Source: a virus. From it: 35,442 nt of DNA. Within the stretch, counting starts at the first letter, position 1. Every line of letters starts with the position of its first letter. The notes below the pieces were generated by a model. That model was not told where the DNA came from, did no database searches, and saw nothing but the letters and a program-made list of their open reading frames with translations. The DNA is taken from positions 1-35,442 of IMG/VR virus record IMGVR_UViG_3300043448_000429. One strand, written 5' to 3'. Positions 8,156 through 34,425 of the stretch are shown in pieces. The translations under genes were made by a program, and so were the position numbers.

Positions 8156-8892
8156 TGTCTACTATAGTCACAGAAGGCGGGAACGTAGTTCCAGACGCAA
8201 AACCAGTAACAAGAAAAAATGTACAAACTGTTGTAGATAATCTACAGAAATTAATGCCTAAAGGTATTCGTGTACATCCTATAGGCAGTGCAGGTAAAAA
8301 AGATGTAAGTAGTGACATGGATGTATTGATTGACGCAGGAGAATTGATGACTGTATTTCCTGCTAAAGAATTAAAATTGAGTCGCAAGGCACTAGAGGAA
8401 TACTTCCAATCTAAAGGAATGTTTGCTGCACGTAGCGGGGTTAGTGTACATATTGGTGTACCAACAGGTGAAGGTAATGACGTAACACAAGTTGATATTA
8501 TGGCTGTAGAAAATGCAGCAGACGTTGTTCCGTTACATACACATGATTATAGTAGAGATCCTGCAATGAAAGGTGGAACATTACATGGTATGTGGGCGGA
8601 CTTAACTAATATGAGTTCATTACCAGAACATCCTAGTTTGATGATGAGTCCATATAAGGGTTTAGTAGACAGACAAACAAAAGAATTAATTACAAGTAAT
8701 AAAGATAAGATAGCAAAAATTATTATTGGACCTAGTGCAAGTGCAGAGGATATGGGAAGTGTACATGCACTATTAACTGCACTACGTCAATACCCAGACA
8801 AGTACAGAGCAATAAAAGATAAGTGGGCACCTAACTTAGAATTAAATGAAGATAATTCTTGGTTTAGATATTTGTTAAATGTGTTAAAATGA
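8155..8892 (+). CDS. Pol-beta superfamily nucleotidyltransferase
   Basis: A 245-aa protein starting at the ATG that overlaps the previous stop; an in-frame upstream ATG at 8089 would lie deep inside the preceding gene and add an unlikely Cys/His-rich leader. The Pol-beta signature is clear: GS (44-45), then SD-x-D (D54, D56) and a third acid in VDIM (D114). Such enzymes transfer a nucleotide to nucleic acid, protein or antibiotic. The C-terminal half is helical and unassigned. It opens a run of three overlapping genes with nucleotidyltransferase-type motifs; substrate unknown. Confidence 0.85.
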   Translation: MSTIVTEGGNVVPDAKPVTRKNVQTVVDNLQKLMPKGIRVHPIGSAGKKDVSSDMDVLIDAGELMTVFPAKELKLSRKALEEYFQSKGMFAARSGVSVHIGVPTGEGNDVTQVDIMAVENAADVVPLHTHDYSRDPAMKGGTLHGMWADLTNMSSLPEHPSLMMSPYKGLVDRQTKELITSNKDKIAKIIIGPSASAEDMGSVHALLTALRQYPDKYRAIKDKWAPNLELNEDNSWFRYLLNVLK

Positions 8893-10037
8893 AAATACAA
8901 TCATTACTAGAGGCAGCAGGGCAAGTAGGTCGTAAATATCAACATATTGAGGACTTAGTGATTGCCAACGGTAGTCATGGAGCAATGCATGCCATAGAAC
9001 GTCTAGATAATATGATTGACAGATATGATTCTATTGAGTTAAAGTGGGACGGTATGCCTGTAGTATATTGGGGCCGTGATGATAATGGTACATTTTATAT
9101 GATACCAAAAAATGCATGGCAATATTTAAAATCAGGAACAATGCAAACAAAAGCGGGAGCCCCTACATTAACTAAAAGCCCACAAGATGTAATGAAATTT
9201 ATATTGGGTACAGGCGGAGAGGCTGATGCAAGCCGTATGCAATTCGCAAAACAGTTTGCAAGTTTATGGCCTTACTTAGAAAAAGCAAGTCCTGTGCGTG
9301 GTTTTTTAGAAGGTGGATTATTATTTTATCCAGGTACAAAACCAGATGGACAAAGTGCTATGCCTGTATTAAACAAGAATACAAATACATATGATTTTAA
9401 ACCTAACATAACAGCATTCCATGTTCCAGTTGATAGTGATTTAGGTAAAAGAATATCAAAAGCAAAAGTAATGATAGCTGCAACAGGATATTATGACAAA
9501 TTGGGTAGTAGTGAGGAAGGTAGATATGAGGATGCTCAACAACTTTCTACTCCTGAAACAATAGTACAAGGTACTACATATGCTGAAGAATTACCAGGTG
9601 TTGATAAATCTGGATTACAAAATTTATCAAAGTTTATACAAGCAAATGCACAGAAAATAGATAATTTTCTATCACCTAAGCCTGGCATGAACAATCCAGG
9701 TGGTGAATTATATACATATTTAAATCAGCATTTAAGAACAAGTGGGTTGTTAAGAGATTTTCCTGCATGGGCGCAACAAAACTTAAGCGCAAAAAAAGCA
9801 CAAACATTATTAAGTGACCCTGAAGGGTTAAAAGCAACATTAGGTGCGGTAGAAGCTATAACTAATGAAAAAATGAAAGTGATTAAATCACTAAGTTTGG
9901 GATTACATGGCGGTATAATGCAAACTAACCCAGAAGGATATGCACAAGCACATCCTGAAGTTAATTTCAAATACCCACTGCCCGGACAGTTTTTAAAATT
10001 AATAGATCAACTTAGTTGGCAACCGAGAAAATTATGA
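8889..10037 (+). CDS. Tagged KxDG ligase-like protein (cyanophage DUF6267-type)
   Basis: A 382-aa protein that begins with the capsid-tag-like MKIQSLLE followed by AAGQ. It carries KWDG (52-55), matching motif I of DNA/RNA ligases and capping enzymes where Lys is adenylylated, then RGFLEGGLLF (137-146), similar to motif III, and a FKPNITAFHVPVDSDLG stretch (170-186). These features recall a family common in T4-like cyanophages (DUF6267 from memory). Nucleotide transfer or ligation is inferred; the later ligase motifs are not obvious. It overlaps both neighbours by 4 nt, between a Pol-beta type and an HxGH type protein, suggesting joint action. The tag would predict presence in the virion. Confidence 0.75.
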   Translation: MKIQSLLEAAGQVGRKYQHIEDLVIANGSHGAMHAIERLDNMIDRYDSIELKWDGMPVVYWGRDDNGTFYMIPKNAWQYLKSGTMQTKAGAPTLTKSPQDVMKFILGTGGEADASRMQFAKQFASLWPYLEKASPVRGFLEGGLLFYPGTKPDGQSAMPVLNKNTNTYDFKPNITAFHVPVDSDLGKRISKAKVMIAATGYYDKLGSSEEGRYEDAQQLSTPETIVQGTTYAEELPGVDKSGLQNLSKFIQANAQKIDNFLSPKPGMNNPGGELYTYLNQHLRTSGLLRDFPAWAQQNLSAKKAQTLLSDPEGLKATLGAVEAITNEKMKVIKSLSLGLHGGIMQTNPEGYAQAHPEVNFKYPLPGQFLKLIDQLSWQPRKL

Positions 10038-11383
10038 TACAACGTACAAAAGGTAAAACAGCAGTAGTAGGATGGGGTCGTGGCATGGGACATAAAGGTC
10101 ACATGTTATTAGCTAGTGCGGTTATACATCAAGCAAAGGCTATCAATGCTACACCTATTTTTATTTTGAGTAGAACAAGTTTAATAGATCCTAATACTGG
10201 TGATTTATGGGCTGATACCAAAAAAGTTAGATCAACAAAAGACGATCCATTGACTCCACAAGAAAAACTTGCAATATATCAGAAGACATTTCCTGAAAAC
10301 GCAAAGATTTTTACTGTAGCAGACGGTGAATCAGGATCACTTAACGATGCATTAGCAAATTTGGCTAAGCAAGGATTCAGTAATGTTGTATTAGTAGTTG
10401 GCGCAGATCAAAAAAATGCATTCCAATATTTGGTAAATCCAAGCAAAGATGGTTCAATACCATATCAACAAATGGGTTTACAAAATTTAGTAGTTATGAG
10501 TAGACAAGAAACACAAGCACCCGGTAGTGACATAGAAGGCCCAAGAGCTACTCCTATGCGTCAGGTTCTATTAGACCCGAACGTTAGTGACGAACAAAGG
10601 TTTGCAGTATGGCGAGATGCTATGCCAGACAGTTTAAGTGATAAGGAAGTGTTTGATTTAATGCAGAAAGCGCAACAAAGATTAGGTAGAGCAGAACAAG
10701 TTGCACCTCCTAAAGCAGCTAAATTAAAAGAATTTATTCAGCGTGTTCGCCCTATGCTTAAAGAGGCAAGCATAGAAAAGAAAGTACAGGTTCTTAAATT
10801 TATTAAAGAATCAATGTTGAAAGAATTTGTAGATACATCAGGTGATGGCGGTAAAGAAGATCCTGACTCTTTTCCATTAAATAAATTTGCTGATATTATA
10901 GAACAATACTTAGGTCGTGGATATACAAGACAGGATAGAGAAAAACCTGAACAAGTTAGTGTGAAGTTTGAACCAAAAGACAAATCTCGCAACGGAGCAA
11001 TACTTTACAGTGTAGTGGGCAAGCGAGGTGAATACCCTACTGTTAATATTCATTTACTTGACTATGAACAAGGATTCGGCAGAGGTCGCAAAGCCGGTGT
11101 TGCAATACCAAAAACTAGAGACAATGCACTTAAACTAGCAGAGTTAATTTTTAATGCACAGTTAAACGAATTTGAAGTGAATGAAGCAGAAGAACCATAC
11201 AATCTACCACAGCGACATACTATGGATTACGGAATGCGTAAAACAATGATTCATCGTTTGGCTAAAGCTACAGACTATGAAATCAGCGCATTAAGTCTAG
11301 CTAGTGACGAAGAATTAACCGATTTGTACAAACAAGTATTCCCAGATCAAGATATAAACGAAGATTATCTAGACGAAAAATAA
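10034..11383 (+). CDS. HxGH nucleotidylyltransferase-like protein with C-terminal extension
   Basis: A 449-aa protein; I chose the ATG at 10034 because it overlaps the previous stop as ATGA, rather than a TTG 18 nt earlier. The N-terminus GWGRGMGHKGHMLLA contains H20-x-G22-H23, the nucleotide-binding signature of the cytidylyltransferase/NMNAT superfamily, and GPRATPMRQ (about residue 175) resembles their ISxTxxR motif. The first 200 residues form this domain. The rest (about 230-449) is an unassigned extension with a basic central part and acidic end. Third of three overlapping nucleotidyltransferase-type genes; substrate unknown. Confidence 0.8.
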   Translation: MIQRTKGKTAVVGWGRGMGHKGHMLLASAVIHQAKAINATPIFILSRTSLIDPNTGDLWADTKKVRSTKDDPLTPQEKLAIYQKTFPENAKIFTVADGESGSLNDALANLAKQGFSNVVLVVGADQKNAFQYLVNPSKDGSIPYQQMGLQNLVVMSRQETQAPGSDIEGPRATPMRQVLLDPNVSDEQRFAVWRDAMPDSLSDKEVFDLMQKAQQRLGRAEQVAPPKAAKLKEFIQRVRPMLKEASIEKKVQVLKFIKESMLKEFVDTSGDGGKEDPDSFPLNKFADIIEQYLGRGYTRQDREKPEQVSVKFEPKDKSRNGAILYSVVGKRGEYPTVNIHLLDYEQGFGRGRKAGVAIPKTRDNALKLAELIFNAQLNEFEVNEAEEPYNLPQRHTMDYGMRKTMIHRLAKATDYEISALSLASDEELTDLYKQVFPDQDINEDYLDEK

Positions 11384-11395
11384 TTTGACCAACAA

Positions 11396-11431
11396 ATCCT
11401 CATGTAAATAATAGTACATTTTCATGAGGAT
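11396..11431 (+). promoter_or_regulatory. Late-promoter-like motif and RBS-sequestering hairpin
   Basis: Perfect 9-bp inverted repeat ATCCTCATG (11396-11404) / CATGAGGAT (11423-11431). The right arm holds the GAGGA ribosome binding site for the ATG at 11435. TGTAAATA (11403-11410), a variant of the late core, sits at the loop edge; transcription from it would begin near 11416, past the left arm, leaving the ribosome binding site open. Readthrough RNA would keep it paired. Confidence 0.65.
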
Positions 11432-11434
11432 CAA

Positions 11435-12361
11435 ATGGCTAAGAAAAAACAAACCCAAGAAGCTACTGTCCCTGTAGAGCAGGTTCAGGAAGCAATTCAA
11501 GAAATACAAGAACAAGATGCTCCAGCAGCTCCTGCTCAAAATCAAGTACAAGTTAACGTAGACTTCTTAAAAACTACCCGTGTACACATAGCTATGCCAT
11601 GCTATGGTGGTATGTTGACCGAATCTACATTTATGAGTTTCATTAAATGGGCTAATACAGCCCGTCAATTGGGGATTGACTGGACATTGGAAACAATGGT
11701 TAACGAAAGTCTAATCAGTCGTGCCCGCAATACACTAACTGCAAAGTTTTTAGACCAAGCTGAATCAACACACTTATTCTTTGTTGATGCTGATATTGGT
11801 TGGGAGCCATGGCACTTGTTAGTATTATTGAACCGTGACAAAGACGTTATCGGTGGACTATATCCTATGAAGACTATGCCAATCAAGTGGGTAGTCAATG
11901 GATTTGAGGGTGCCGAAGAAGGTCCTGATGGACTACAAGAAGTTAGTAAAGCAGGCACTGGTTTCTTACTAATGAAGAAGCATGTATTTGAGAAACTAAA
12001 TGTTCACCCTGCAGTTAAACAGTACAAGAACGACATTGGTCTAGATCCAAAGTATGACAAGTACCTAAAGACATATTTTGATACAGCAGTCCGTCAAAAT
12101 CGTTACTACAGTGAGGACTGGACCTTCTGTGAAAACTGGCGTGATCTAGGTGGTAAAGTTTATGTTGATAAGCGTGTATTATTACGTCACAGTGGTGCAT
12201 ATGTATTCTGTATGGAAAATCAGCAACATTTGTTAAACACAATTGGACCTATGTATGTTCAGGAACAACAGAATCAAGCAGCACAACAAGCACAAGCAAG
12301 TGCAGCACCTGTTGACGCAGGAACTACAAAGGCAACAAAGAAAAGTAAAAAGACAGCATAA
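11435..12361 (+). CDS. GT-A type glycosyltransferase
   Basis: A 308-aa protein with a Gln/Pro-rich disordered leader (1-42), a catalytic domain from VHIAMPCYGG (50-59) to about 265, and an Ala/Gln/Lys-rich tail. FFVDADIGW (115-123) contains the DxD-type DAD (118-120) that binds the metal and nucleotide sugar. The YSEDWTFCENWRDLGG segment supplies the ED acid pair typical of the fold. It may decorate virion proteins or phage DNA. It has its own regulatory hairpin and is followed by a strong terminator, so it forms a single-gene unit. Confidence 0.88.
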   Translation: MAKKKQTQEATVPVEQVQEAIQEIQEQDAPAAPAQNQVQVNVDFLKTTRVHIAMPCYGGMLTESTFMSFIKWANTARQLGIDWTLETMVNESLISRARNTLTAKFLDQAESTHLFFVDADIGWEPWHLLVLLNRDKDVIGGLYPMKTMPIKWVVNGFEGAEEGPDGLQEVSKAGTGFLLMKKHVFEKLNVHPAVKQYKNDIGLDPKYDKYLKTYFDTAVRQNRYYSEDWTFCENWRDLGGKVYVDKRVLLRHSGAYVFCMENQQHLLNTIGPMYVQEQQNQAAQQAQASAAPVDAGTTKATKKSKKTA

Positions 12362-12380
12362 ATTACACTGTCTCTAAGAC

Positions 12381-12416
12381 AAGGGCTATAGCAGACATCT
12401 GTTATAGCCCTTTTTT
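12381..12416 (+). terminator. Intrinsic terminator after the glycosyltransferase
   Basis: A 10-bp perfect stem AAGGGCTATA (12381-12390) / TATAGCCCTT (12403-12412) that extends inward by four more pairs including one G-T, followed by a T run to 12416. The T run abuts the late-promoter motif of the next gene. Confidence 0.88.
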
Positions 12417-12424
12417 GATAAATA
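12417..12424 (+). promoter_or_regulatory. Late-promoter-like motif GATAAATA
   Basis: GATAAATACT lies directly after the terminator T run and 4 nt before the ATG at 12429. With T4 spacing, transcription would begin at about the start codon, so the message would be leaderless; no Shine-Dalgarno is present. Confidence 0.65.
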
Positions 12425-12428
12425 CTCT

Positions 12429-13514
12429 ATGAACCTTAAGGAATTAGCTAATTTTAAACTGCATGATGCAGTATTTTTTCATGACCAACTAAATCCAGTG
12501 ATTTTTTTGGGAGATAAGATGCGCCCCGAAGTCAGAACCCAATTAATTTTAATTGCTGAAGATTTTATAGATCATTTGGGAATCCCGCATTTAGAAGTAG
12601 AAGATGTAACAGTTTCAGGGTCGAATGCAGCTTACACCTACACAAAACATAGCGACATTGATCTACATATTTTAGTAGATATGAAAAAATTAAATGATGA
12701 TATTATCTACCGTGAGTTATTTGATGCTAAGAAAACTATCTATAATGACACACATGACATTCAAATAGGTGGATATGACGTTGAACTATATGTACAAGAT
12801 ACGAATCAACCTGTAATCAGTTTGGGTGAGTACAGCGTTGTAAATGATGAATGGATTAGATTACCTAAGAAACATCGTTCTAATTTAGACCAGGCTGCTA
12901 CTAGATTAAAATTCAATAAACTAGCAAGATTAGCAGAATTGGCACTAAAGAATGATGATGAAAAAAGAATAAAAAATTTGTTAAAAACAGTCAAAAAATA
13001 CAGACAAGCAGGACTTGATATGCATGGTGAATTCGGGCCTGAAAATTTAGCATATAAAGCACTACGTAGTAAAGGCATTCTTAAAAAATTATACGATAAG
13101 ATAAATTCACTACATAGCGATAATTTAAGTTTAGCCGAAGAAGAAAAATTATTAGATAAACCAACTCAAACACTAAGAAAACTTGCTAGCAAACATCATG
13201 TATTAATTCAAGACCTATATCAACAACTAAAAAAGGGTATAGGTGTTGAAATGGAACATACTAACCATCCTAGTGTAGCAAGAGAAATAGCAATGGATCA
13301 TTTAGCTGAAAATCCATATTATTACGATGAATTAAATAAAGTTGGTTTAGAAGAGGGAGCGAGTGGGTATATACCTAGTCCTAAACAAAAAAATGACCCT
13401 CGATATAAAACAGGATTAACAGTAGATGTTACTCCATATAGCATACAAGATAATGCTAAAAAATTAGGTAGTAAAATAAGTAGGGCAGGTATACCACCCT
13501 TACTAAGACCATAA
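12429..13514 (+). CDS. Pol-beta type nucleotidyltransferase with DUF5661-like C-terminal domain
   Basis: A 361-aa protein. The signature GSNAAYTYTKHSDIDLHIL gives GS (64-65), SD-x-D (D76, D78) and a third acid around DVELY (117-121), all expected for an active Pol-beta fold. A lysine-rich helical middle follows. Around 270-305 is EHTNHPSVAREIAMDHLAEN with PYYYDEL just after, a pattern I associate from memory with DUF5661 in phages and environmental bacteria. The C-terminus ends GIPPLLRP. It precedes the tail-fibre block and shares its transcript. Substrate unknown; it could act on RNA, protein or a small molecule. Confidence 0.83.
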   Translation: MNLKELANFKLHDAVFFHDQLNPVIFLGDKMRPEVRTQLILIAEDFIDHLGIPHLEVEDVTVSGSNAAYTYTKHSDIDLHILVDMKKLNDDIIYRELFDAKKTIYNDTHDIQIGGYDVELYVQDTNQPVISLGEYSVVNDEWIRLPKKHRSNLDQAATRLKFNKLARLAELALKNDDEKRIKNLLKTVKKYRQAGLDMHGEFGPENLAYKALRSKGILKKLYDKINSLHSDNLSLAEEEKLLDKPTQTLRKLASKHHVLIQDLYQQLKKGIGVEMEHTNHPSVAREIAMDHLAENPYYYDELNKVGLEEGASGYIPSPKQKNDPRYKTGLTVDVTPYSIQDNAKKLGSKISRAGIPPLLRP

Positions 13515-13533
13515 AAATTATAAGGAAAAAATC

Positions 13534-14715: not shown

Positions 14716-14725
14716 TTAGGTAATT

Positions 14726-16078: not shown

Positions 16079-16099
16079 TAAGAATAACAAGGAAATAAA

Positions 16100-23314: not shown

Positions 23315-26300
23315 ATGAAAATCAAACAACTCTCAGAAACGACAGCAGGTGCAGTAGCAAGTGTCGCAATGCCATTAGGATCCACACATAAAAGAACAGA
23401 AGAAGCAGCCAATCCAGCACAGCAAGCAGCAATAGCCGTTAATATGAAAAAAACTGGCAAGAAGCCTAAGAAGGTTGACGAAGGAACATATAAAGGTCCT
23501 CACGGTGAAATGGATGTTGACCGTAGCAAGAAGGGTGTTACTAAAGTAAGCAGGAAAGATTACGAAGCTTCATATCCTAATGTTGCTAATGTAGGTAAAG
23601 ATGTGTCTGATTATGATTTAAATTTACATCCTAATAAGCCTCATATCAGTCTTTCAAAAGTTAAAAAAATTAAAGAAGGTGATACGGAACCACAATTCGT
23701 AGAGATAAATCCAAACAGTTTTTTAGACGATGATTTTTATGCATTTGATCCAGAAACTAAAGTACTAAAAGGTACATGGAGTCACAAGTCAGTTGGTCGT
23801 AGACACCATGAATATGAAGCACAACAAAAAGGCTATGAGGTTGTTAGCGGTATGAAAGCAAAACGTTTAGGATTAGTAAGAAAACAAAAACAAGTAGATG
23901 AAGGTGGCTTTGACATTCCAGAAATACCTAGAGCACCAACGCCAAAACCTCCCAAAGAGAAAGATGTGGCGGAAGGTGCCGGTAGAAGTTTCTTAGAAAT
24001 TGTTGATGACTTTTTAGTAGATTATTCAGGCTCACAGTCAGGCGATACTTATAGCTGGACTGATGGTAAAAAAGTGATTGAAGTTGAAATGGATCCCAGT
24101 GATAACGGCACAGTGTATTGGGCATTGGGAATCGCAGGAAGAACTGGCAAAACCAATTGGGTAGAAAGTGGCAGCGATAACCCGAAAGATGCATTGCGTG
24201 TTGTAAAGAACTTTGCTAAAAATTCACTGGCGGAAGGCATGTTTGGATTGTCGGACAAAGAAAAAGGAAAAATTCAAAATATTGCCATAGAGATCAGTGA
24301 CATCCCTGGCTATTGGGATTGGAAGCGTGACACCTTTACTCCATATGGAGTTTTAGCATTAGAAAAGGCTTTAGATGATAATAAACACTATGTAAAGTAT
24401 GCACTAAGTTTAACAGCAGACGATTATTATTATGATTTGGAAGAAGGAAAAGATGAATCTTTACGTAAAGCTGTAACAGATTTTGATTATAACAAAAATA
24501 ATCAACAACCGGTAGCGCCTTCTCCTGAACAAAAAGCACAAATAAAAAAAGACGTATCAGACTACAATAAAGAAAAAGAAGAAAAGCAAAAACAAGGTGT
24601 TAAAGAAGATTGGCAGAAAGTAAATCGTAAAGATAAAACATCTGGCATGAGCAGTAAAGCAGTCAAAGCATACCGTCGTGAGAATCCAGGCAGTAAATTA
24701 AAAACAGCGGTTACTACAAAGCCAAGTAAGTTAAAGAGAGGCAGTAAAGCTGCCAAACGCCGTAAAAGTTTCTGTGCTAGAATGAGTGGGAACAAAGGTC
24801 CTATGAAAAAGCCTAATGGTAAACCTACTCCAAAAGCGTTAGCATTACGCCGTTGGAATTGCGAGAGCATAGAAGATATGCGCAAACTAATTGAAAATGC
24901 AGAAAAGTTTATTGCAGAACACAAGCAAATTAATAACGAAAAATCACTAAGCGAAAATTTACATAAGTGGTTTAAAGAGAAGTGGGTTCGTTTTGGTCCT
25001 GACGGAAAGATTCGTGGTGATTGCGCAAGAGGTGATGACAGCGAAGGTAAACCAAAGTGTTTACCACAAAGTAAAGCACAGAACTTAGGTAAGAAGGGCC
25101 GTGCAAGTGCTGCTGCAAGAAAGCGTAGAGAAGATCCAAATCCAGAGCGTAGTGGCAAAGCAATTAATGTTGCTACTAAAAAGAAAACCAATGAAGCTGA
25201 CCTTAATGAAGCATGTTGGAAAGGTTACCATAAAGAAGGTAACAAAAAAATGTTTGGTAAGACTTATCCTAACTGCGTAAAAAATACAAACGAAGAACAG
25301 CAATTAGATGAAAAATGTTGGGATACACATAAGCAAGTTGGCATGAAGAAAAAAGGCGGTAAGATGGTTCCTAACTGTGTACCAAAAGAAAGTATACAAG
25401 AAGGACATCAACAATGTCCTGAATGCGGTGGTGCAATGTACTCAGAAGAAATGATTAATGAAAAGAAAGATGCTTGTTACTATAAAGTGAAAAGTCGTTA
25501 CAAAGTATGGCCTAGTGCATATGCTAGCGGAGCACTAGTAAAGTGCCGCAAAAAAGGTGCAAAGAACTGGGGCACAAAATCTGAAAGCATTGATACAAAG
25601 AGTAATATTCTTAAAGGTATGGCAGAGGCAAAACTTAGAGAAGAAGAACTATTATTAGCGCCAGGTCAAGGTGTAAGATTTAAAACTGAACTAATGCCAA
25701 AGCGTACTGATCATGAAGTTGAAATGGCTCGCAATCAATTAAGATCAAGTTTTGAAAATGCAAAAGACATTTATCAAAATATAAAAGATTTAAGTGAGAT
25801 ACAAGGACTTGATGGTTGGGTTCAAGCAAAGATTACGAAAGCAAGTGACTATCTTGAGGCAGTAAATCAGTACATTGAAGGTAAAAAAGAGATGCTTGAA
25901 ATACAAAGTGAAGTAGATCACCAAGTTGAAGAACAATATCCAGCTCAGCAATATAGTCCAAAAGGTGTGCCATTAAAACGAGCTCCTGTAGCACCAACAA
26001 ATGTGCCTCAAGGTTGGCAAGCAAATACTCAGGCAGATGGTAGTACACGTATATCCAAACAAGGAAGTATGTCTAGAGACCAGTATCAACAGAATATGGC
26101 AAACTACAAAGCACAAAACTGGACTCCTCAAAATATTGCAGATTATGACAGAAGAATGGCTTCAGGTCAGGGATATTCTGATGCAGAAAAATATGCAAAT
26201 TATCAAGCTGGTGTAAAAGCAAGTGGGCGTGAGGATCCTGAGACATTAGCAATGTTAATACCAGATGAAAATGTTCGTAATCAATTACAACAACCAACAA

Positions 26301-26944
26301 ATGAAAATAATACTGACTTTGATGACAGGTCACCTCAGGACACATATATTCAAAGTAAAACTTCTTTAACCAGTAGAGATGGTGTTGATGATATTAGCAA
26401 AAGAGTGGCGTCACTAAGTACTGACAGGCACGGAAATCAACGTGTAAGAGCAATTGATACTAATAGAGATTTGGGTGATGAAGTAACAATTAATACTATG
26501 ATACCAAAAGGTGTAAAAGCTAAAATAGTTCCTCAACAAGGTAATGCAAATATAGAAGAAGCAGAAAAATTATCAGCACGTGAGAAATTCAAACGTGGAT
26601 TAAAACGTGCAGGATATGATCCTGATGCCGGTGCAGATAGATTATTACGATTGATTGCTAGACAAGCAGAAGAACGTAAAGAATTTGAAAGAAAACAAAA
26701 AGAACAGGATGAAGAATTCTACAAAAATAGAAAATTAAAAGAACAAGATCCTCAACCAAATAGTAATCAACAAGATCAACCAAAGTCAAATAAATTGTTT
26801 GATGTACTAAAGAGTATAGGTGATGTTGCATTACCAGTTGGCAGAGCTATTTATGGTATGCAGGGAAGAGATGTACCAGCTGACATAAAAAGTGATGTAA
26901 AAACAATGATACGAAATAAAGTTACAGGCGAGCCAAACAAATGA
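23315..26944 (+). CDS. Tagged 1209-aa apparent polyprotein with repeated prohead-protease-like sites
   Basis: Begins with the tag-like MKIKQLSE, then short modules separated by hydrophobic-x-E junctions. Sites after E56, E121, E196, E220, E307, E377, E431, E535, E547, E632, E666, E696, E716, E771 and E1082 read VDE-G, IKE-G, VDE-G, VAE-G, LAE-G, LEE-G, VKE-D, IAE-H, LSE-N, LNE-A, LDE-K, IQE-G, INE-K, MAE-A and IEE-A, close to the T4 gp21 rule (L/I)-x-E. Modules include a basic KSFCARMSG to RRWNC piece (484-516), KWVRFGPDGKIRGDC to KCLPQSKA (551-588), two CW-x(18-20)-PNCV units (634-690), CPECGG (701-706) and a CYYKVKSRYKVWPSAYASGA to NWG piece (721-753). The last third is helical and Gln-rich. 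Probably internal virion cargo cut during maturation; cleavage is inferred. Confidence 0.8.
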   Translation: MKIKQLSETTAGAVASVAMPLGSTHKRTEEAANPAQQAAIAVNMKKTGKKPKKVDEGTYKGPHGEMDVDRSKKGVTKVSRKDYEASYPNVANVGKDVSDYDLNLHPNKPHISLSKVKKIKEGDTEPQFVEINPNSFLDDDFYAFDPETKVLKGTWSHKSVGRRHHEYEAQQKGYEVVSGMKAKRLGLVRKQKQVDEGGFDIPEIPRAPTPKPPKEKDVAEGAGRSFLEIVDDFLVDYSGSQSGDTYSWTDGKKVIEVEMDPSDNGTVYWALGIAGRTGKTNWVESGSDNPKDALRVVKNFAKNSLAEGMFGLSDKEKGKIQNIAIEISDIPGYWDWKRDTFTPYGVLALEKALDDNKHYVKYALSLTADDYYYDLEEGKDESLRKAVTDFDYNKNNQQPVAPSPEQKAQIKKDVSDYNKEKEEKQKQGVKEDWQKVNRKDKTSGMSSKAVKAYRRENPGSKLKTAVTTKPSKLKRGSKAAKRRKSFCARMSGNKGPMKKPNGKPTPKALALRRWNCESIEDMRKLIENAEKFIAEHKQINNEKSLSENLHKWFKEKWVRFGPDGKIRGDCARGDDSEGKPKCLPQSKAQNLGKKGRASAAARKRREDPNPERSGKAINVATKKKTNEADLNEACWKGYHKEGNKKMFGKTYPNCVKNTNEEQQLDEKCWDTHKQVGMKKKGGKMVPNCVPKESIQEGHQQCPECGGAMYSEEMINEKKDACYYKVKSRYKVWPSAYASGALVKCRKKGAKNWGTKSESIDTKSNILKGMAEAKLREEELLLAPGQGVRFKTELMPKRTDHEVEMARNQLRSSFENAKDIYQNIKDLSEIQGLDGWVQAKITKASDYLEAVNQYIEGKKEMLEIQSEVDHQVEEQYPAQQYSPKGVPLKRAPVAPTNVPQGWQANTQADGSTRISKQGSMSRDQYQQNMANYKAQNWTPQNIADYDRRMASGQGYSDAEKYANYQAGVKASGREDPETLAMLIPDENVRNQLQQPTNENNTDFDDRSPQDTYIQSKTSLTSRDGVDDISKRVASLSTDRHGNQRVRAIDTNRDLGDEVTINTMIPKGVKAKIVPQQGNANIEEAEKLSAREKFKRGLKRAGYDPDAGADRLLRLIARQAEERKEFERKQKEQDEEFYKNRKLKEQDPQPNSNQQDQPKSNKLFDVLKSIGDVALPVGRAIYGMQGRDVPADIKSDVKTMIRNKVTGEPNK
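25214..25384 (+). repeat. Tandem duplicated CW/PNCV module in the polyprotein
   Basis: Two consecutive units, residues 634-655 and 668-690, each run CW-x(2)-H-K-x(2)-G-x-K-K-x-(F/G)-G-K-x-(Y/V)-PNCV with small spacing differences, and each is preceded by a hydrophobic-x-E junction (LNE-A, LDE-K). This looks like duplication of one peptide with its processing site. Confidence 0.7.
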
Positions 26945-28212
26945 AATATATAGAACTATTTGAAGGTGCAGAACCACAACTACCAGGTGCACCTAGTGGT
27001 ATACAAATTATGACACCGCAACAATTTGTTGCTAAAAGTCAACAAGGTCAAGAACCAACTCCTGATGAAGAAGTTGATGAAGCTACTAAACTTCCAGCAA
27101 GCACACGTGAATTAAAAGGACAAGAACTAACAGATTATCTAGACCGTATTCGCGGCACTGCTGACATTGACAAAAAGACAGGCATGCCCAAAGTAGATAA
27201 AAAGGGCAAAGAAAAGTATATCAGTGGTAAAACTAAACTAGACAAGTACAGAATGCCCTACATTCATCGTAGTGCAGTATTAGGTTTCTATTCACCTGAA
27301 GGTAAGAAGTATGACATTGATAGATTAAAAGATGCAATGAAGCAGCGTCCTGCTAAGTTATTAAAGCAGAATGAAAAAATGAAACATAGTAATGGAGAAC
27401 TAGAACAATTCTTCAATATTGGTTTCGCTGCATTAGTTGGTTCTGCTGTTGATGAAACAACAAACGAAATTATTATTGTTAACACTTGTCCTGGCGCAGG
27501 ATCATGTAAAGTAGATTGCTTTGCTATGAAGGGTGGTAAAATTCAATATGATGGTCCTTGGTTAAGTGATGCACGTATTCTTACTTACTTACTAAATGAC
27601 CCTGAAGGATTTAAAGCGCAACTTAATAGTGAAATTGCAAAAGAGGCAAAAGCAGGTGCAACATACAAAAAAGGTCCATACAGTGTTTCTATTCGTTGGC
27701 ATGATGCAGGTGACTTTTTCAGTCCTGAATATTTAGGACTAGCATTTGATATTGCAAAAGCCAATCCTACAGTTAAATTTTATGCTTATACAAAAATGGC
27801 TAGTGCTGCTCTTGCTCAAAAGCCAGATAATTTTATTATCAATTGGAGTGAAGGTGCTCACACTAGTCAAGAAAAACAAGTAAAAGCGGCTGATCCTAAT
27901 TTAGAGCGTACAAAGAACTCACGTATTGTACCAGAAAAATTATTCTGGGACTTGTTAGTAAAAGACGAAAAAGGTAATTTAGTTAAGGGCAGCGAAGGAC
28001 AATGGCAAGTTCAACCTGATAAATTAAAAGAGTTAAAACAAAGATTAGGGCAAGCATATGGTATTAGTCCAAGCTCTATTCTATCATACGATGAATATAC
28101 ATCAAGACCAAAAACAGGTGGAATGAAATACAATGTTATTGTTGCGCCAGGTGAAGGTGATATTAGCGCAAACGATCTTGGCGTGCTAAGTACATTATTA
28201 TTGAGACATTAA
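26941..28212 (+). CDS. Tagged Gp88-like cysteine protein
   Basis: A 423-aa protein starting MKYIELFE-GAEP, tag-like, with a second possible processing site VDE-A (45-48) after a Pro/Gln-rich linker. The core has CPGAGSCKVDCFA (C183, C189, C193), SDARILTYLLNDPEGF (209-224), a RWHDAGDFFSPEYL segment (252-265) and FYAYTK (280-285). This order resembles the phage Gp88/DUF7227-type family as I remember it; its activity is not established, though the clustered cysteines suggest a metal or iron-sulfur site. It overlaps the polyprotein gene by ATGA and is followed after 1 nt by the Dps gene. Confidence 0.72.
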   Translation: MKYIELFEGAEPQLPGAPSGIQIMTPQQFVAKSQQGQEPTPDEEVDEATKLPASTRELKGQELTDYLDRIRGTADIDKKTGMPKVDKKGKEKYISGKTKLDKYRMPYIHRSAVLGFYSPEGKKYDIDRLKDAMKQRPAKLLKQNEKMKHSNGELEQFFNIGFAALVGSAVDETTNEIIIVNTCPGAGSCKVDCFAMKGGKIQYDGPWLSDARILTYLLNDPEGFKAQLNSEIAKEAKAGATYKKGPYSVSIRWHDAGDFFSPEYLGLAFDIAKANPTVKFYAYTKMASAALAQKPDNFIINWSEGAHTSQEKQVKAADPNLERTKNSRIVPEKLFWDLLVKDEKGNLVKGSEGQWQVQPDKLKELKQRLGQAYGISPSSILSYDEYTSRPKTGGMKYNVIVAPGEGDISANDLGVLSTLLLRH

Positions 28213-28213
28213 A

Positions 28214-28654: not shown

Positions 28655-28713
28655 TGGATCCAAACACTAATCCAGATGATGATCGCCCAGTTGTTCCTTA
28701 CGGAGAACACTAA
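28654..28713 (+). CDS. Possible 19-aa mini-gene
   Basis: ATG overlaps the dps stop (TAATG, 28652-28656) and its TAA overlaps the next ATG (28711-28715). It encodes MDPNTNPDDDRPVVPYGEH, an acidic proline-rich peptide. Precise stop-start overlaps at both ends favour translation; it could also serve only to couple dps with the next gene. Confidence 0.5.
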   Translation: MDPNTNPDDDRPVVPYGEH

Positions 28714-28895
28714 TGAAAGCCAAAGAGTTTTTAGAAAAAATTAACAAATATTCAGCTAGAGTCAAAGTAAAAGCTGGAGGCAACTCTACGACAGTAAATA
28801 CTGTTGTGTTTGCTGATAACGCATCACAGGCACGTGCGTTATTACAAGCAGCATATGGTGATAATAGCGTAATTTCATTAGACAAGTTGAGTTAA
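28713..28895 (+). CDS. Small tagged protein, 60 aa
   Basis: A 60-aa basic protein starting MKAKEFLE-KINK, like the capsid tag. The rest (KVKAGGNSTTVNTVVFADNASQ and a helix ARALLQAAYGDN) reads as a beta-beta-alpha mini-domain of unknown role. It begins within the stop of the mini-gene and is 3 nt before the next gene. The small size and tag recall T4 internal proteins. Confidence 0.7.
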   Translation: MKAKEFLEKINKYSARVKVKAGGNSTTVNTVVFADNASQARALLQAAYGDNSVISLDKLS

Positions 28896-28898
28896 TTT

Positions 28899-29871: not shown

Positions 29872-29878
29872 CCAAATA

Positions 29879-29899
29879 CGCATAAATACTAATTATGCG
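29879..29899 (+). promoter_or_regulatory. Late promoter with start-codon-sequestering hairpin
   Basis: CATAAATA (29881-29888) lies in the left arm of a perfect 7-bp inverted repeat CGCATAA (29879-29885) / TTATGCG (29893-29899), loop of 7. The right arm contains the ATG at 29895. Late transcription should start near 29894, removing the left arm; readthrough from the desaturase gene would hide the start codon. Confidence 0.7.
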
Positions 29900-30776
29900 C
29901 ATTTCAGACTTTAGAATTCACAACACACAAAAACTAGACCGTATTCTTGCAAAGTTATGCGAGATGATTATTGACGGACAAAAACGTGACCCTGACTACT
30001 ATGGTATGGTAGCAGCGTGTGTACTTGATACACAAGACGAGGCCGTTTGTGCAGTCAATTATCAAAAAGGTGACCAGCGAGTTCACGCCGAAAAAGCAGC
30101 AGTTGAAAAGTACATGAATCAATATGGAGACATCCCTGCAGGAAGTATTATAATTACCACACTAAGTCCATGCAGTGAGATGATGAGGGAACGCTACGGA
30201 GACGATTGCACAGACTTAATAGAACAGATAGGAGTGCATAAAGTATACTGCGGATATGAAGATCCTACACAAGATGACAGTAGTAACTATATGCATAAGA
30301 CATTTCATGTCATGTGTACTAGAAACGACAAAATCAAAGAACTATGTAAGTCCTTTGCAGATACTTTCTTAGAAAAAGAAAAGATAGCAGAGCATAAGCA
30401 AATAATGGAAGCAGTATTAAAAGTGAATACTGAAGAAATGGTTCCTAAATTTGTTGAGTGGTCTAGACGAGTATTGAAGCTCAAAACTAATCCCGAAATA
30501 GAATTAAGTTATGATACTGAAGAAGCACAAAAAGGACATCATACTGGTCGTCATACTACAGATGACAACAAAGTATGGGTTTATGCAAAGAATCGTAACT
30601 TAGTGGATATATTAAGAACAGTGTTTCACGAATTAGTTCATGTACGCCAAGGTGAGTTGAATATGATTAAGCCAGGTGATAGTTATCCTGGTAGTCCTAT
30701 TGAGCGTCAAGCAGATGAAATGGCTGGAAAGTTTATAAAGATATTTGGTGAAAAGCACCCTGAAATTTTTCAATAA
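29895..30776 (+). CDS. Deaminase-like domain fused to zincin-like metallopeptidase
   Basis: A 293-aa two-domain protein. Residues 1-150 carry the cytidine-deaminase fold signature: HAE (64-66) and PC (92-93) with a second Cys in the DDC at 103-105; the style resembles RibD-type deaminases. Residues 170-293 contain HELVH (245-249), a zinc HExxH motif, followed by IERQADEMAGKF (269-280) that could give the third ligand. The joint (164-170) reads IAEHKQI, identical to a stretch of the polyprotein (533-539), and could be cut after IAE. No Shine-Dalgarno; near-leaderless late transcript expected. Substrates unknown; a role in modifying host nucleotides or proteins is inferred. Confidence 0.82.
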   Translation: MRISDFRIHNTQKLDRILAKLCEMIIDGQKRDPDYYGMVAACVLDTQDEAVCAVNYQKGDQRVHAEKAAVEKYMNQYGDIPAGSIIITTLSPCSEMMRERYGDDCTDLIEQIGVHKVYCGYEDPTQDDSSNYMHKTFHVMCTRNDKIKELCKSFADTFLEKEKIAEHKQIMEAVLKVNTEEMVPKFVEWSRRVLKLKTNPEIELSYDTEEAQKGHHTGRHTTDDNKVWVYAKNRNLVDILRTVFHELVHVRQGELNMIKPGDSYPGSPIERQADEMAGKFIKIFGEKHPEIFQ

Positions 30777-30789
30777 CATATAGGAAAAC

Positions 30790-31557
30790 ATGACAGAATC
30801 TATATTCAAAAAATATGATAGAACCAAGCGCAGAAATAATTTAGGAAAAGACCTTGTGTTTTATGAAAGTGACAAATGGACAGCCTTAGCACCATTGGAT
30901 GAAAATTCATTAATATATCATTATCATGTAGCTAAAAATTGTTTATCTGCACCAGAAATGTTTCCGGAAATGTTTAGAAACGTAAGATCAATTGGGCAGG
31001 TTGGAATGTTATATCCAAAAAATCCAACACACGAATATGAAAAATATGAGTTTCACTTTTATTATCATTTAATACCAAATTTTTTGTTAAGGTATTTAAA
31101 AGAAAAAGGGGCTTTTACTGCAGGATTGAAAAACAAATTATTAGAAAACGATTTTAGTGAACAAGATATAGAAAATATATTAGATGTAAATTACAGTACG
31201 ACAAGCGAACAAGAATATAAAATTTGGACATTGACATTTGATATAAAGGATGATGATTTAAGGCCTATTTTAGAAATTTTAAATCTAGAAAATCATAATA
31301 TAATTTCATTATCTGAGTTGATGGATCCAGTAAAATTATTTTCAAATTCCTATCTAACCTTTTCAAAAGAATTCTTAGAAGGTAACAATTTACAGAAACG
31401 AGGACCTAGTAATTTACAAGGAACTTTTTATTCAATTAAAGAGCTGAAAGAACTTTTACAAGATGAATACGAAGTTATATTAGCAAAATATTTTGAATCA
31501 TTTCCTAATTGTGAAAAACAATATGAGATGTACAGTTTTTATGATAGTATGCAGTAA
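30790..31557 (+). CDS. Unknown protein, possibly related to the WCTA-motif protein
   Basis: A 255-aa protein rich in Asn, Lys, Glu and aromatic residues, preceded by AGGA. No clear motif. WTALAPLDENSLIYHYHVAKNCL and, further on, KYEFHFYYH vaguely align with the W-x-V-x-x-P / GTRWCTA / YQLHF layout of the protein at 33487, so it may be a distant relative. It lies 3 nt upstream of the Alt-like gene. It has no capsid tag at its start. Confidence 0.7.
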   Translation: MTESIFKKYDRTKRRNNLGKDLVFYESDKWTALAPLDENSLIYHYHVAKNCLSAPEMFPEMFRNVRSIGQVGMLYPKNPTHEYEKYEFHFYYHLIPNFLLRYLKEKGAFTAGLKNKLLENDFSEQDIENILDVNYSTTSEQEYKIWTLTFDIKDDDLRPILEILNLENHNIISLSELMDPVKLFSNSYLTFSKEFLEGNNLQKRGPSNLQGTFYSIKELKELLQDEYEVILAKYFESFPNCEKQYEMYSFYDSMQ

Positions 31558-31560
31558 AAT

Positions 31561-32346
31561 ATGAAAGCAAGTGAATTTATAACAGAGTTATATGAACCAA
31601 AAACTAGTTTTCCATTAAACTGGTATCCAAGTCACCACCCTAGCGAAGCATCAGCTAGAGCATATGATAGGAACAAAGGTTACATAGATATTAAATTCAC
31701 TCCAATATTAGGTTCCGATGATATGGTTGAAGTAGAATTTAGTCGCAATGATAGTTATGACATGACTGGTGGCGGTGATGCTAACAGGGTATTAGGAACA
31801 GTATTACAAGCATTTCGAGAATACCTACAAGGTTATCAACCTAAAATACTAGTGTTTAGTGCAAAGGGTGCAAGCCGTAGTAAAGTGTATCAGAATTTAA
31901 TAAAACGATTTGCAAGTACTGTAGGTTACAAACAATTTGATATCAGTAAATTAAGTCCAGAAACACAAGAAAAAATTGCCTTTAGTGGTAGTGATCTTAT
32001 GGTATTAAGAAAATCACTGGTTAAAGAAGATATTAAACCTAGAACATATGCAGGTAACGTGCAGGCGGGTAATTATTTAGTTAAAATAGATCAACATCTT
32101 GTAGATAGAGCAGTTGAAAGAAATGTTCCACAGCATGAAATTATAAGCACAATGAATAAATTAAGTAAAGCCAAAGCTAAACTTAAAACTTTAGCTCCCG
32201 GTGAAAGTTTTTATATTCATGATAACACCAATGGTTTGTATGTATTATTTTATACTTTAGATTCTGATAGAAAAGTTTATATAGCCAGAACAGTTTGGCC
32301 CCATAAAAAGAAAGATAGTGTTTTACCGATTATTCAGGTGGCATGA
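31561..32346 (+). CDS. Tagged Alt-N-like protein with RNase-like C-terminal domain
   Basis: A 261-aa protein. The leader MKASEFITE-LYEP parallels T4 Alt (MELITELFDE), and the region after it (12-150) follows Alt's N-terminal domain in layout: a GGGDANRVLGTVLQAF stretch, then a strand and KGASRSKVYQNLIKRF. A VKE-D site (154-157) would separate a C-terminal domain (about 170-261) with HLVDRAVERNVP and a strand-rich end, like small RNase or toxin folds (DUF4258/RelE style); that part is uncertain. In T4, Alt is packaged and injected. The same is proposed here. Confidence 0.7.
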   Translation: MKASEFITELYEPKTSFPLNWYPSHHPSEASARAYDRNKGYIDIKFTPILGSDDMVEVEFSRNDSYDMTGGGDANRVLGTVLQAFREYLQGYQPKILVFSAKGASRSKVYQNLIKRFASTVGYKQFDISKLSPETQEKIAFSGSDLMVLRKSLVKEDIKPRTYAGNVQAGNYLVKIDQHLVDRAVERNVPQHEIISTMNKLSKAKAKLKTLAPGESFYIHDNTNGLYVLFYTLDSDRKVYIARTVWPHKKKDSVLPIIQVA

Positions 32347-32375
32347 TGAGAGCAAACGAATTTTTAATTGAGGGC
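32346..32375 (+). repeat. Tag-coding DNA repeat, copy A
   Basis: First 30 nt of the kinase-like gene, coding MRANEFLIEG. It differs from copy B at two third-codon positions only. Confidence 0.85.
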
Positions 32376-33041
32376 AACTGTCTATATAAAGAAGATGAAC
32401 TAGAAGAAATGGCTGGTGAGATTCATGGTGGAGTTCGTAAAGCACTAATAGATCAAGGCTACAAATATTTAGGTAGTGGGATTGATAAACAAGCATACTT
32501 AGAACCAAGTACAGGTCAAGCATTAATTATTTTTGGTTATAGAAAGAATATTGATGATTTCAGTCCTGATCAAAGAATGTTTATTGATTGGATTAAGTAT
32601 TGCAATGCTAATAAAAATAATCCAAATTTACCAAAATTTAGTGGCTTTGAAAGTTTTAAATTCCATGGCAAAAATTATATACAAGCTAGAATGGAACCAT
32701 TGCAAGAAGTAACCGATCAAGTAAAGAACCTTGTAAATTATCTTGAAACTGTAATAGATGAGATATCACAAGGTGACATAAATGCTGCCTTTGAATATTT
32801 GGCAAAAAAAGGTTATTATGATGAAAAAATAGACTACTTTAGACCTTACACAGTAAAACAAGTTGTAGATTATTTAGGCGGGCTAAAACGAGCAAAAAAC
32901 TTACTGCAAACTGTGCATGATGTTGCGGTGTTTGGCGCAAAAAACAATTATAACATAGATTTACATTCTGGTAATTATATGAAACGAGCTAACGGAACTA
33001 TTGTAGTGAACGATCCTTTTGTAATATGGTTGAGATCATGA
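32346..33041 (+). CDS. Tagged kinase-like protein
   Basis: A 231-aa protein from the second of two adjacent ATGs (32343, 32346). The second gives MRANEFLIE-GN as in its neighbours. A glycine-rich stretch YLGSGIDKQAYL (41-52) and the catalytic-loop-like DLHSGN (205-210) then NDPF (222-225) match the protein-kinase superfamily order (HxD-like loop, DFG-like). The VAIK lysine is unclear (K67 is nearest), so it may be atypical or inactive. The upstream stop overlaps the start. Overlaps the next gene by ATGA. Confidence 0.72.
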   Translation: MRANEFLIEGNCLYKEDELEEMAGEIHGGVRKALIDQGYKYLGSGIDKQAYLEPSTGQALIIFGYRKNIDDFSPDQRMFIDWIKYCNANKNNPNLPKFSGFESFKFHGKNYIQARMEPLQEVTDQVKNLVNYLETVIDEISQGDINAAFEYLAKKGYYDEKIDYFRPYTVKQVVDYLGGLKRAKNLLQTVHDVAVFGAKNNYNIDLHSGNYMKRANGTIVVNDPFVIWLRS

Positions 33042-33067
33042 GAGCAAATGAATTTTTAATTGAAGGC
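33038..33067 (+). repeat. Tag-coding DNA repeat, copy B
   Basis: First 30 nt of the ADP-ribosyltransferase-like gene; 28 of 30 bases match copy A, and the first 21 match copy C exactly. Confidence 0.85.
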
Positions 33068-33490
33068 AATCGTTTGTATCATGCTACCACTCCCCAAGGT
33101 TTCAGAGGTATGTTAAAAACCGGTTACATCTTACCGAGCAGTCCAGAAATACAACACGGTTGGGGATTTGGTGCCACAGGAATCGATGATGGCACTATAA
33201 GCATGACCCGTGACCCACGTTATTTGGTGTTTGATATTGTAGACACACAAATCATCTTAGATCGTGAGGCACTACAGCGTCATCATAAAATCACGCCATA
33301 TGGCAGTGAAGGAGAATTTGAAGAACGTGTTACTAAAGCTATTCCCTTTACTAATGTATATGTTAAAAAGGTTATCTTCCTTGACGAAAGACCTGGGCCC
33401 AAAACACTAAGAAAATTAAAAGATTTAGGAATTCCTTATATCACTAAGTGGCCTGATAATCCGATAGATCGATATAGGATGTATAAATGA
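33038..33490 (+). CDS. Tagged ADP-ribosyltransferase-like protein
   Basis: A 150-aa protein from the ATG that overlaps the previous stop (33038-33041). A frame start 12 nt earlier would add MVEI before the shared tag and is less likely. After MRANEFLIE-GN comes LYHATTPQGFRGMLKTGY, then ISMTRDPRYL (54-63) and EFEERV (93-98). This H/Y, S-T and E order resembles the ADP-ribosyltransferase superfamily, but I cannot verify the fold. T4 Alt and Mod are ADP-ribosyltransferases, so a tagged small relative fits. Targets unknown. Confidence 0.68.
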   Translation: MRANEFLIEGNRLYHATTPQGFRGMLKTGYILPSSPEIQHGWGFGATGIDDGTISMTRDPRYLVFDIVDTQIILDREALQRHHKITPYGSEGEFEERVTKAIPFTNVYVKKVIFLDERPGPKTLRKLKDLGIPYITKWPDNPIDRYRMYK

Positions 33491-33507
33491 GAGCAAATGA
33501 ATTTTTA
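33487..33507 (+). repeat. Tag-coding DNA repeat, copy C
   Basis: First 21 nt of the gene are identical to copy B, then the sequence diverges after the codons for MRANEFL. Confidence 0.85.
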
Positions 33508-34425
33508 GTAGAATACAAGCGGGACGTAACTATACAAAAGTTAGGTCAACCACTATATCAAAAAATGATTAATGATAGAACCGTACAAAGAATATACGGT
33601 GATGACCCATTACAAAATATTGATCCAAACGAAATAATTGAGTTTGGTATTGATAGATTTCAAGAGGCTGACCCTACACCCAATAAACAATTTGTACCTT
33701 GGTTAGTAAGACTATACGCAAAAGACCCTACATTTAAGTTTGAAGATGTACTAAGTCAAGTTCATCCTTACTTAGAAAAGTTTTATAAATTAAACATGCG
33801 TAAGAAAATTCCTAGTCCACGCAATGATGTAAATCGTTATGCAAGCTTTGCAGATTTTATGGGCGTAATGGATGAATATGAAGATCCTGATAAAGTAGAA
33901 CTAAAAGATAAAGGTCGTGCATTTACATTATATGATGACGAAAATTGGCGTGTTATAGTTCCACAAAACGAAGCAGCATCGTGTTACTATGGTCAAGGCA
34001 CACGTTGGTGCACTGCTGCTACAAAAGCAAATAATATGTTTGAATATTATGAAAGTATAGCTCCATTACTTATTGCAATACCAAAAAAGCCTAAATATCC
34101 CGGAGAAAAATATCAACTACATTTTGGTATATCTATTGATGATAATCCAGTGAAAAGTGATTCTGATGCTTTAGATTATGCGAGCCAATCAAGTGATTAT
34201 GCCGGTTACGATTGGAGTGATTACCTTAGTAGTGATGATGTAGATATTGATTTTGAATACGGTCAAATAATGGATGAACGAGATAATCCTGTAGCAGGTC
34301 CTACCATTATTACAAGAATGGGTGATAGTTGGGAAAATATGCTAAATGCGTATGTTCAAAAATTCCCTAAACATCAATGGCAACTAGAAAAGAATTTAGA
34401 GCAACTGGATACAGGGTTTATTTAA
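33487..34425 (+). CDS. Tagged WCTA-motif protein of unknown function
   Basis: A 312-aa protein that begins within the previous stop (ATGA, 33487-33490) with MRANEFLVE-YK. The N-terminal half is helical. Residues 154-213 read WRVIVPQNEAASCYYGQGTR then WCTAATKANNMFEYY and YQLHF, a motif layout seen in proteins of large phages and viruses, function unknown to me. The acidic C-terminus contains many Asp/Ser/Tyr. It closes the run of tagged genes. Confidence 0.72.
   Translation: MRANEFLVEYKRDVTIQKLGQPLYQKMINDRTVQRIYGDDPLQNIDPNEIIEFGIDRFQEADPTPNKQFVPWLVRLYAKDPTFKFEDVLSQVHPYLEKFYKLNMRKKIPSPRNDVNRYASFADFMGVMDEYEDPDKVELKDKGRAFTLYDDENWRVIVPQNEAASCYYGQGTRWCTAATKANNMFEYYESIAPLLIAIPKKPKYPGEKYQLHFGISIDDNPVKSDSDALDYASQSSDYAGYDWSDYLSSDDVDIDFEYGQIMDERDNPVAGPTIITRMGDSWENMLNAYVQKFPKHQWQLEKNLEQLDTGFI

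Follow-up and report, generated by a model that had tools for sequence, protein, structure and literature searches.

Short leaders ending in glutamate mark a candidate set of packaged, head-protease-diced proteins in large environmental phages

IMGVR_UViG_3300043448_000429 is an IMG/VR virus record of 35,442 bases, taken whole and here called the window, in which eight unrelated proteins begin with similar leaders of eight or nine residues that end in glutamate. Leaders of this kind are carried by proteins of many families in related phages, and sites of the form [LIV]xE recur at the points where domains that are leader-tagged in some phages have been fused into longer chains in others. We consider it probable (roughly 0.8) that a T4-type capsid-targeting and propeptide system has here grown into a tagged, protease-diced set of cargo proteins. 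The leader set is much larger than eight genes, and the finding at the junctions is new in this analysis. A first-pass annotation of the window had noted the eight leaders; that observation is right at its core, and some of the labels attached to it are wrong or unproven. The eight genes are listed below, a slash marking the putative cut.

8889..10037, + strand: DUF6267 protein, leader MKIQSLLE/A; Pfam PF19782, E = 5.6e-13.
23315..26944, + strand: modular polyprotein of 1209 residues (DUF6321 and small Cys-rich modules), leader MKIKQLSE/T.
26941..28212, + strand: GP88-family Cys protein (PF17338), leader MKYIELFE/G; Pfam E = 9.7e-24.
28713..28895, + strand: protein of 60 residues starting MKAKEFLE/K, a doubtful leader; no Pfam match.
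31561..32346, + strand: GNAT-like (residues 15-155) plus RelE/RegB-like (170-253) protein, leader MKASEFITE/L; weak RegB Pfam match and structural model.
32346..33041, + strand: kinase-like protein, leader MRANEFLIE/G; phrog_15752 protein kinase, E = 4.1e-10.
33038..33490, + strand: protein of 150 residues, leader MRANEFLIE/G; ART-like by eye only (LYHAT...).
33487..34425, + strand: protein with a GTRWCTAA motif, leader MRANEFLVE/Y; homologue in Pseudomonas phage PA5oct.

All eight open reading frames (ORFs) and their N-termini are present in the window as first described, and the proteins match different Pfam or PHROG families or none. Among 34 hand-curated window genes, the pattern M[KR]x(3-4)[LIF]xE matches exactly these eight, whereas the same pattern with any of 14 other end residues matches none to three (I 3; K, T, G, A, V and F 1 each; D, Q, N, S, R, L and P 0). 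Two leader genes have in-frame upstream ATGs (32343 for 32346 and 33026 for 33038). Several relatives of 32346 begin at the leader Met (L041, L223, L049); for 33038 only identical copies turned up, and its start is provisional. Diverged homologues back the leaders of 8889, 23315, 26941, 31561, 32346 and 33487, so that the T4-like leader claimed for all eight stands for these six and is in doubt for 28713, where a relative has D as the last leader residue (P1).

The motif search over relatives that had been suggested with the first observation gave an enrichment of E-ended leaders at gene starts. In four large related contigs, 8/446, 10/480, 6/211 and 6/256 genes have the strict pattern in their start region, against 1/1714, 3/1736, 1/936 and 0/1002 internal ATGs; when nine end residues were compared, the eight other than E gave 0-3 genes each. 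Such genome-wide counts are probably low because the automatic gene caller misses leader starts: it recovered one of the eight in the window, and three with a widened start region. A scan of IMG/VR for M[KR]ANEFL[IVM]E returned 29 matches in 27 stretches. Every one reads MRANEFL[IV]E and lies near the start of a long ORF, no more than 30 open codons preceding it, and together they front 17 unrelated families; the scan of IMG/VR for MRANEFL[IV]E with the final E changed to K gave zero matches. The second pattern, M[KR]A[TS]EFIxE, was found at least 120 times against 27 for the final-K control, and on at least 25 families (115 proteins of at least 50 residues among the matches listed) against 8; 113 among the matches listed likewise lie at the head of long ORFs, 30 open codons or fewer preceding them. 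Fifteen of the 26 control proteins belong to a single family, starting MRATEFINKE or MRATEFIDKE, with E one residue later. Together, the two patterns front at least 34 families of unrelated cargo. The codons behind these peptides vary (19 distinct nucleotide versions in 29 for MRANEFL[IV]E, and 87 distinct in 120 among the matches listed for M[KR]A[TS]EFIxE), which points to selection on the peptide. From the fetched loci, 242 proteins with the strict pattern fell into 62 families by single linkage, of which the largest (119) is chained by shared domains and some singletons are perhaps due to chance; on the best reading of these sequences the tagged set comprises about 60 candidate families.

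Comparison of relatives indicates that within families the leader drifts while a hydrophobic P3 and the E stay. The zincin-like family has leaders as different as MRYTEFIIE/S, MRAIELYE/S, MRFEQVLIE/S and MITIQFLHE/S, and P3 is L, I or V in 16 of the 19 listed and F in 3. LxE is found in 14/14 listed N-termini of the GP88 family, the other residues varying (MKYIELFE/G, MNFKELHE/G, MKITDLLLE/S), and relatives of the DUF6267 protein keep [LIV]xE ahead of the domain (MYNDLLVE/D in Pelagibacter phage HTVC008M, MRAFEFLRE/A in L213 and MRYSDIKLVE/S in L136). When the 31561 protein is aligned to ten selected relatives (11 sequences), M1 and E9 are the only invariant columns.

For the junction test we took cases in which a domain follows a leader in one phage and is fused in another, and sought a site where the leader would end. 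Twenty of the 206 junctions (12 with sites) were dropped before counting because the starts of their five queries were wrong (these included ClpA, portal, a 2178-like protein and one more). At the remaining 186, [LIV]xE is present in 148, against about 45 expected in random windows of the same chains. When each family is represented by a single junction, [LIV]xE is present in about 32 of 39 (minimum 28) against 8.5 expected, the null maximum being 21 in 20,000. At P1, E alone stands out (z = 18, the next being N at 3.6); at P3, L, I and V are enriched and so is E (z = 9), perhaps a contribution of charged linkers. Those that stand out at P1' are A, D, N, G, H and S. Among 129 distinct junction sites, M[KR] is kept in 3 and [EDQ][FIL] occurs at P5-P4 in 6 against 3.5 expected, a composition that tells against their being relics of leaders. 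In fam31, one retained junction has MRAKEFLAE inside it, which could reflect a mis-called start. Junction sites in the window are SLVKE156/D of the 31561 protein, the sole internal site of that chain, and those of 32346 and 29895 given further below. In the structural model of 31561, runs of at least three residues with a predicted local distance difference test score (pLDDT) below 50 are confined to residues 1-5 (leader) and 154-160 (junction). Stand-alone RegB-like relatives begin MRATEFLTE/E and MRAIEFLQE/V, and the L003 chain joins the N-domain of 31561 to kinase-like and RegB-like domains.

The 23315 protein had been labelled a diced polyprotein, a reading favoured by its excess of sites and by the occurrence of its modules behind leaders elsewhere. 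It contains [LIV]xE followed by G seven times against 0.97 in shuffles (0/5000 reach 7), and 22 [LIV]xE in all against 13.5. DUF6321 modules follow MKSSEFITE in G033_154611 and MRISEILTE in G021_223343, and the L142 protein, starting MRATEFITE/DWNK, aligns to 23315 at KE431/DWQK. Homologous modules are found in cyanophages (369 of 50,697 phage records match), and in two cyanophages examined they adjoin tail and terminase genes. Cyanophage S-SRM01 has other proteins starting MKSFKQFISE and MKNFHQFITE, both similar to the leader MKTYQEFIAE, which we found at two places in T4.

A candidate protease is encoded by the relatives. G014, a 223-kb contig syntenic with the window at up to 88% identity, carries a protease of the T4 gp21 family (S77, PF03420) adjoining gp20-, gp22- and gp23-like genes, which we named by eye from gene order and resemblance to annotated genes of HTVC008M and PA5oct. 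S77 was found in 7/7 tested leader-bearing contigs of at least 190 kb (G014, G017, G021, G029, G033, G037, G039), and T4 gives one PF03420 match. Three scans of smaller fragment contigs gave matches in 0/11, 1/21 others and 0/7 others; the first two scans share three contigs, and ten IMG/VR contigs of the third were hand-picked among the listed M[KR]A[TS]EFIxE matches. The gene of the gp23-like capsid protein is absent from the window record, and its motifs are taken from relatives: the N-terminal region contains LLAE/S in G014, G021 and G029, YLKE/N in G033 and FLVE/N in PA5oct, at positions near what we take to be the T4 gp23 cut. The exact capsid site is presumed because other LxE occur in the same region. 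L or I at P3 and E at P1 are common to the leaders and the presumed capsid cut. The proposal that a gp21-like protease cuts the leader after [LI]xE is thus supported in the relatives by S77, the capsid motif and E-specific leaders and junctions, from which we infer the cleavage itself.

A homologue of 33487 in PA5oct, EST35_0205, is annotated as a structural protein with a note of detection by electrospray ionization tandem mass spectrometry (ESI-MS/MS). Twelve of the 22 PA5oct proteins with a leader-type homologue bear this note against 81 of 474 others (p = 1.2e-4), and 11 of 18 do so when four from mis-started queries are removed (p = 6e-5); several of the remaining matches are ordinary structural or housekeeping proteins. 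For the comparison of the proteins' own starts given further below, the 93 noted coding sequences were copied by hand from tables, and the set of 403 others came from a gene caller, not from the annotation.

In the mechanism that we infer, the leaders of 8-9 residues would act as T4-type capsid-targeting propeptides that bring unrelated proteins into the prohead core while the head assembles. A gp21-like S77 protease would then cut after [LIV]xE in the prohead and free the cargo from its leader. The same protease would cut [LIV]xE linkers, and a multidomain precursor packed as one chain would be released as separate domains. Mature proteins would stay with the DNA and most likely be ejected into the host, where they could act at once; in the window the candidates are the kinase-like protein, the GNAT-like and RelE/RegB-like domains, the DUF6267 and GP88 proteins and others. 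Some cargo, for example the 23315 polyprotein, may be core filler.

Filler or scaffold of the head core, as with T4 gp67 and gp68, could also be the main role of the whole set, the proteins being cut and packed but then broken down inside the prohead instead of reaching the host as active effectors. This would suit the modular 23315 polyprotein with its many sites, and a small PA5oct gene beside the portal gene (gp67-like by position) has the leader MKINDIITE/G. We nevertheless regard it as unlikely, since in some proteins [LIV]xE is confined to the edges: 31561 has one internal site, at its domain junction, and the single [LIV]xE in the 382 residues of 8889 is that of the leader. Moreover, 74 scanned proteins, nearly all leader-bearing (62 family representatives and 12 chosen by hand, at least one of which has no start leader), match 15 Pfam families, among them NUDIX, GNAT, NT5C, HicA, SLT, glycoside hydrolase 19 and ART-PolyVal. 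The leader could instead stay uncleaved and serve in localisation or regulation, with no tie to the prohead protease. In favour of this, the leader has a nearly invariant E5 besides its final E (with F6 in one family), and its cleavage is putative. However, P1 E and an aliphatic P3 are common to the capsid N-terminal region and the internal junctions, and the remainder of the leader is absent from the junctions, which makes such a peptide very improbable. We give hardly any credence to the shared 5' gene ends being traces of recombination that swaps genes behind a conserved start, with no function at the protein level. Identical leader peptides on unrelated genes invite this reading, but their synonymous codons vary in the proportions given above, a hydrophobic P3 and the E persist within a family whose leaders otherwise diverge, and the internal junction sites are not relics (M[KR] in 3/129).

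Several observations weigh against the favoured reading of a tagged and diced cargo set. Count and family spread separate E from K in the M[KR]A[TS]EFIxE scan, and start position does not, because 25/27 control matches also lie at ORF starts. Some families, all kept in the junction count, are poor in sites (1/10 in fam26, 1/5 in fam8, 1/3 in fam22, 0/1 in each of fam16 and fam38), and the polyprotein homologues of P-SSM2 and S-SRM01 have no leader. The 28713 relative G014_4357 starts MKAKDFLD/K, in which P1 is not kept. HTVC008M has S77 but few such leaders, with the strict pattern at 1/192 genes (3 for D) and hence no enrichment; we had considered it as a positive control and rejected it, its leaders being too few for any enrichment to show. 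Neither the 171-kb leader-bearing contig G040 nor the 35-kb window record gave an S77 match; a gp21-like protease gene outside the window is suggested by the syntenic G014 and the large leader-bearing relatives. In PA5oct the ESI-MS/MS note is no strict proof of a place in the virion because enzymes (ribonucleotide reductase, thymidylate synthase) bear it too. Leader patterns at the proteins' own starts, which were picked after inspection of the data, are modestly enriched among the noted PA5oct proteins (5/93 vs 4/403, p = 0.014); other such patterns gave 5 vs 3 (p = 0.007) and, when looser, 10 vs 25 (p = 0.097). Finally, the late-type ATAAATA motif is over-represented ahead of genes in G014 and G021, but leader genes, taken individually, show no enrichment of it (p 0.38-1.0), and a link to late promoters was for that reason dropped as support.

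Much of this has precedents. T4 internal proteins are described as having only a packaging leader in common (PMC3012670), and that conserved leader fronts diverse proteins (PMC3012670, PMC12373910). Internal proteins and Alt lose short N-terminal peptides to gp21 (PMC9958956), Alt being cut at ITE-6 and LTE-619 (PMC5694885). Variants of GmrSD are blocked by Ip1-3, and the leader served to locate many ip genes (PMC12373910). S77 is present in large-phage groups 1 and 2 (PMC7824862). The set described here resembles T4 IPI-III and Alt in its short N-terminal leader ending in [LI]xE, its unrelated cargo and the S77 protease of its relatives; it differs in having far more cargo families, mostly behind M[KR]xxEF[LI]xE, and fused domains with internal sites, and in occurring in large phages distant from T4. 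In phiKZ and SPN3US the prohead protease likewise cuts packed proteins after E, there following A-X-E or S/A/G-X-E, with several propeptides of more than 100 residues (PMC5694885), in contrast to [LIV]xE and mostly 8-10 residues here. In phage P1 the N-terminus of DarB carries a packaging signal that can send a reporter into the head, for which the available text describes no LxE leader, unlike here (PMC9024508). Packaging is also the accepted view for ARTs and polyvalent chains (PMC9503650, PMC5512222). Polyvalent proteins combine several domains, ART, RNase and peptidase domains among them, in one chain that is probably injected (Iyer et al. 2017, PMC5512222); 31561 (GNAT-like and RelE-like) and L003 likewise join several effector-like domains in one chain, and one leader protein, L201, scores above the ART-PolyVal cut-off. 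For polyvalent proteins it has been proposed that peptidase domains within the chain do the processing (PMC5512222), whereas here the sequences point to the head protease as the dicer. In the open PubMed Central literature (subscription papers and preprints being outside this scope), we found neither a description of this leader for large environmental phages nor one of head-protease dicing of effector chains.

We lean, with less assurance than for the cargo set itself, towards a wider picture in which large phages with an S77 protease have a capsid-based secretion system. A portable tag of 8-10 residues would load dozens of effector families, the head protease would dice chains at [LIV]xE linkers, and effectors could be fused, split and re-tagged freely while the injected set stays unchanged. 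If so, a simple rule applied to sequence would list the injected proteins of many uncultured large phages and yield new candidates, by the dozen, for anti-defence and host takeover, and which proteins a phage injects would become a direct question for mass spectrometry. Dicing by the head protease would also be a possible mechanism for polyvalent effector chains.

Further window genes bear on this set as follows.

29895..30776, + strand: cytidine-deaminase and zincin-like fusion, with no N-terminal LxE leader; Pfam PF00383, E = 2.1e-10.
2801..3337, + strand: possible extra member with the short leader MNKLTE/G, missed by the first-pass annotation; proposed from the N-termini of relatives.

The 29895 fusion has an internal site, KIAE166/H, and its C-terminal domain, which looks zincin-like by eye from an HELVH motif, stands alone in relatives behind MKIREITE/S and MKINELLNE/G, aligning at that site. 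The deaminase N-termini of relatives are MRISDF-like and have no LxE (MKISDFQIHD, MRASDFQIHD). Relatives of 2801, which has no Pfam match, begin MNRIINE/G, MHLLLE/G and MSIILNE/G.

Among the eight, the 8889 protein has a KWDG motif and by eye resembles nucleotidyltransferases, and the 26941 protein has a second site, VDE47/A, ahead of its conserved part. For 28713, a comparison with the ORFs of 80 residues or more in the fetched loci gave no homologue at E ≤ 1e-5. The RegB Pfam match of 31561 (E = 1.2e-4) falls short of the curated cut-off, the protein is DUF6934-like in the Pfam/PHROG search, and its Foldseek search gave no match at E ≤ 0.001. The halves of its model reach middling scores (VIA Z 7.7 to a GNAT and 6.4 to RelE 2kc8), which suggests a resemblance to GNAT and RelE/RegB. 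In 32346, DLHxGN and DP are conserved; the Lys that other homologues have in VLKIFG is replaced by Ile in the window protein, which makes kinase activity uncertain, and a kinase profile (A2) gave no match at 0.01 to PDB sequences. Its second site, ELEE21/M, has E in 7/7 homologues that cover the column, with P3 L, I or V in 6; one further aligned homologue does not reach it. For 33038 the earlier label of ART-like is unverified, with no Pfam match at E ≤ 0.1 and no PDB sequence match at E ≤ 1. The label of Alt-like for 33487 likewise found no confirmation: the protein has no Pfam match, and a Foldseek search of its model against the PDB gave no match, a known fold still being possible. Residues 1-7 of that model lie under pLDDT 50, as do five other short stretches.

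A 33487 homologue in CcrBL9, which has no S77 match, has no leader, a single case. Seven places in the 440-kb Salicola phage SCTP-2 (L267) match the 33487 protein, and one protein there starts MPSMRDYINLIDSYSKNQILLE followed by S. The product of 30790-31557 in the window has no leader; its residues 19-90 match G014_678 at 144-214 (32%, a region of the 33487 family), and it is possibly a decayed or unpackaged copy.

In G014 and G021 (loci L096-L107 and L078-L095) the upstream regions of genes, tail and head genes among them, are enriched in the motif GATAAATA, a likely late promoter. An excess of TTGACAAT is seen in G029 and G021. Among the 74 scanned proteins, PADLOC assigned two candidate-defence names, and one protein of the 74 matches HicA_toxin (E = 3.6e-6). 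In L019:11973-13316, a leader protein has by eye a HicA-like stretch between GNAT-like and kinase-like domains. L029:4664-9701 is a run of small genes of different families, at least seven of which have a leader of the MRAxEF or MRASDF type, one of them with MKASEF. Window positions 1238-8155 hold PhoH, DnaJ, ClpA and neighbours in PA5oct gene order, and some of the flanking PA5oct genes bear the ESI-MS/MS note.

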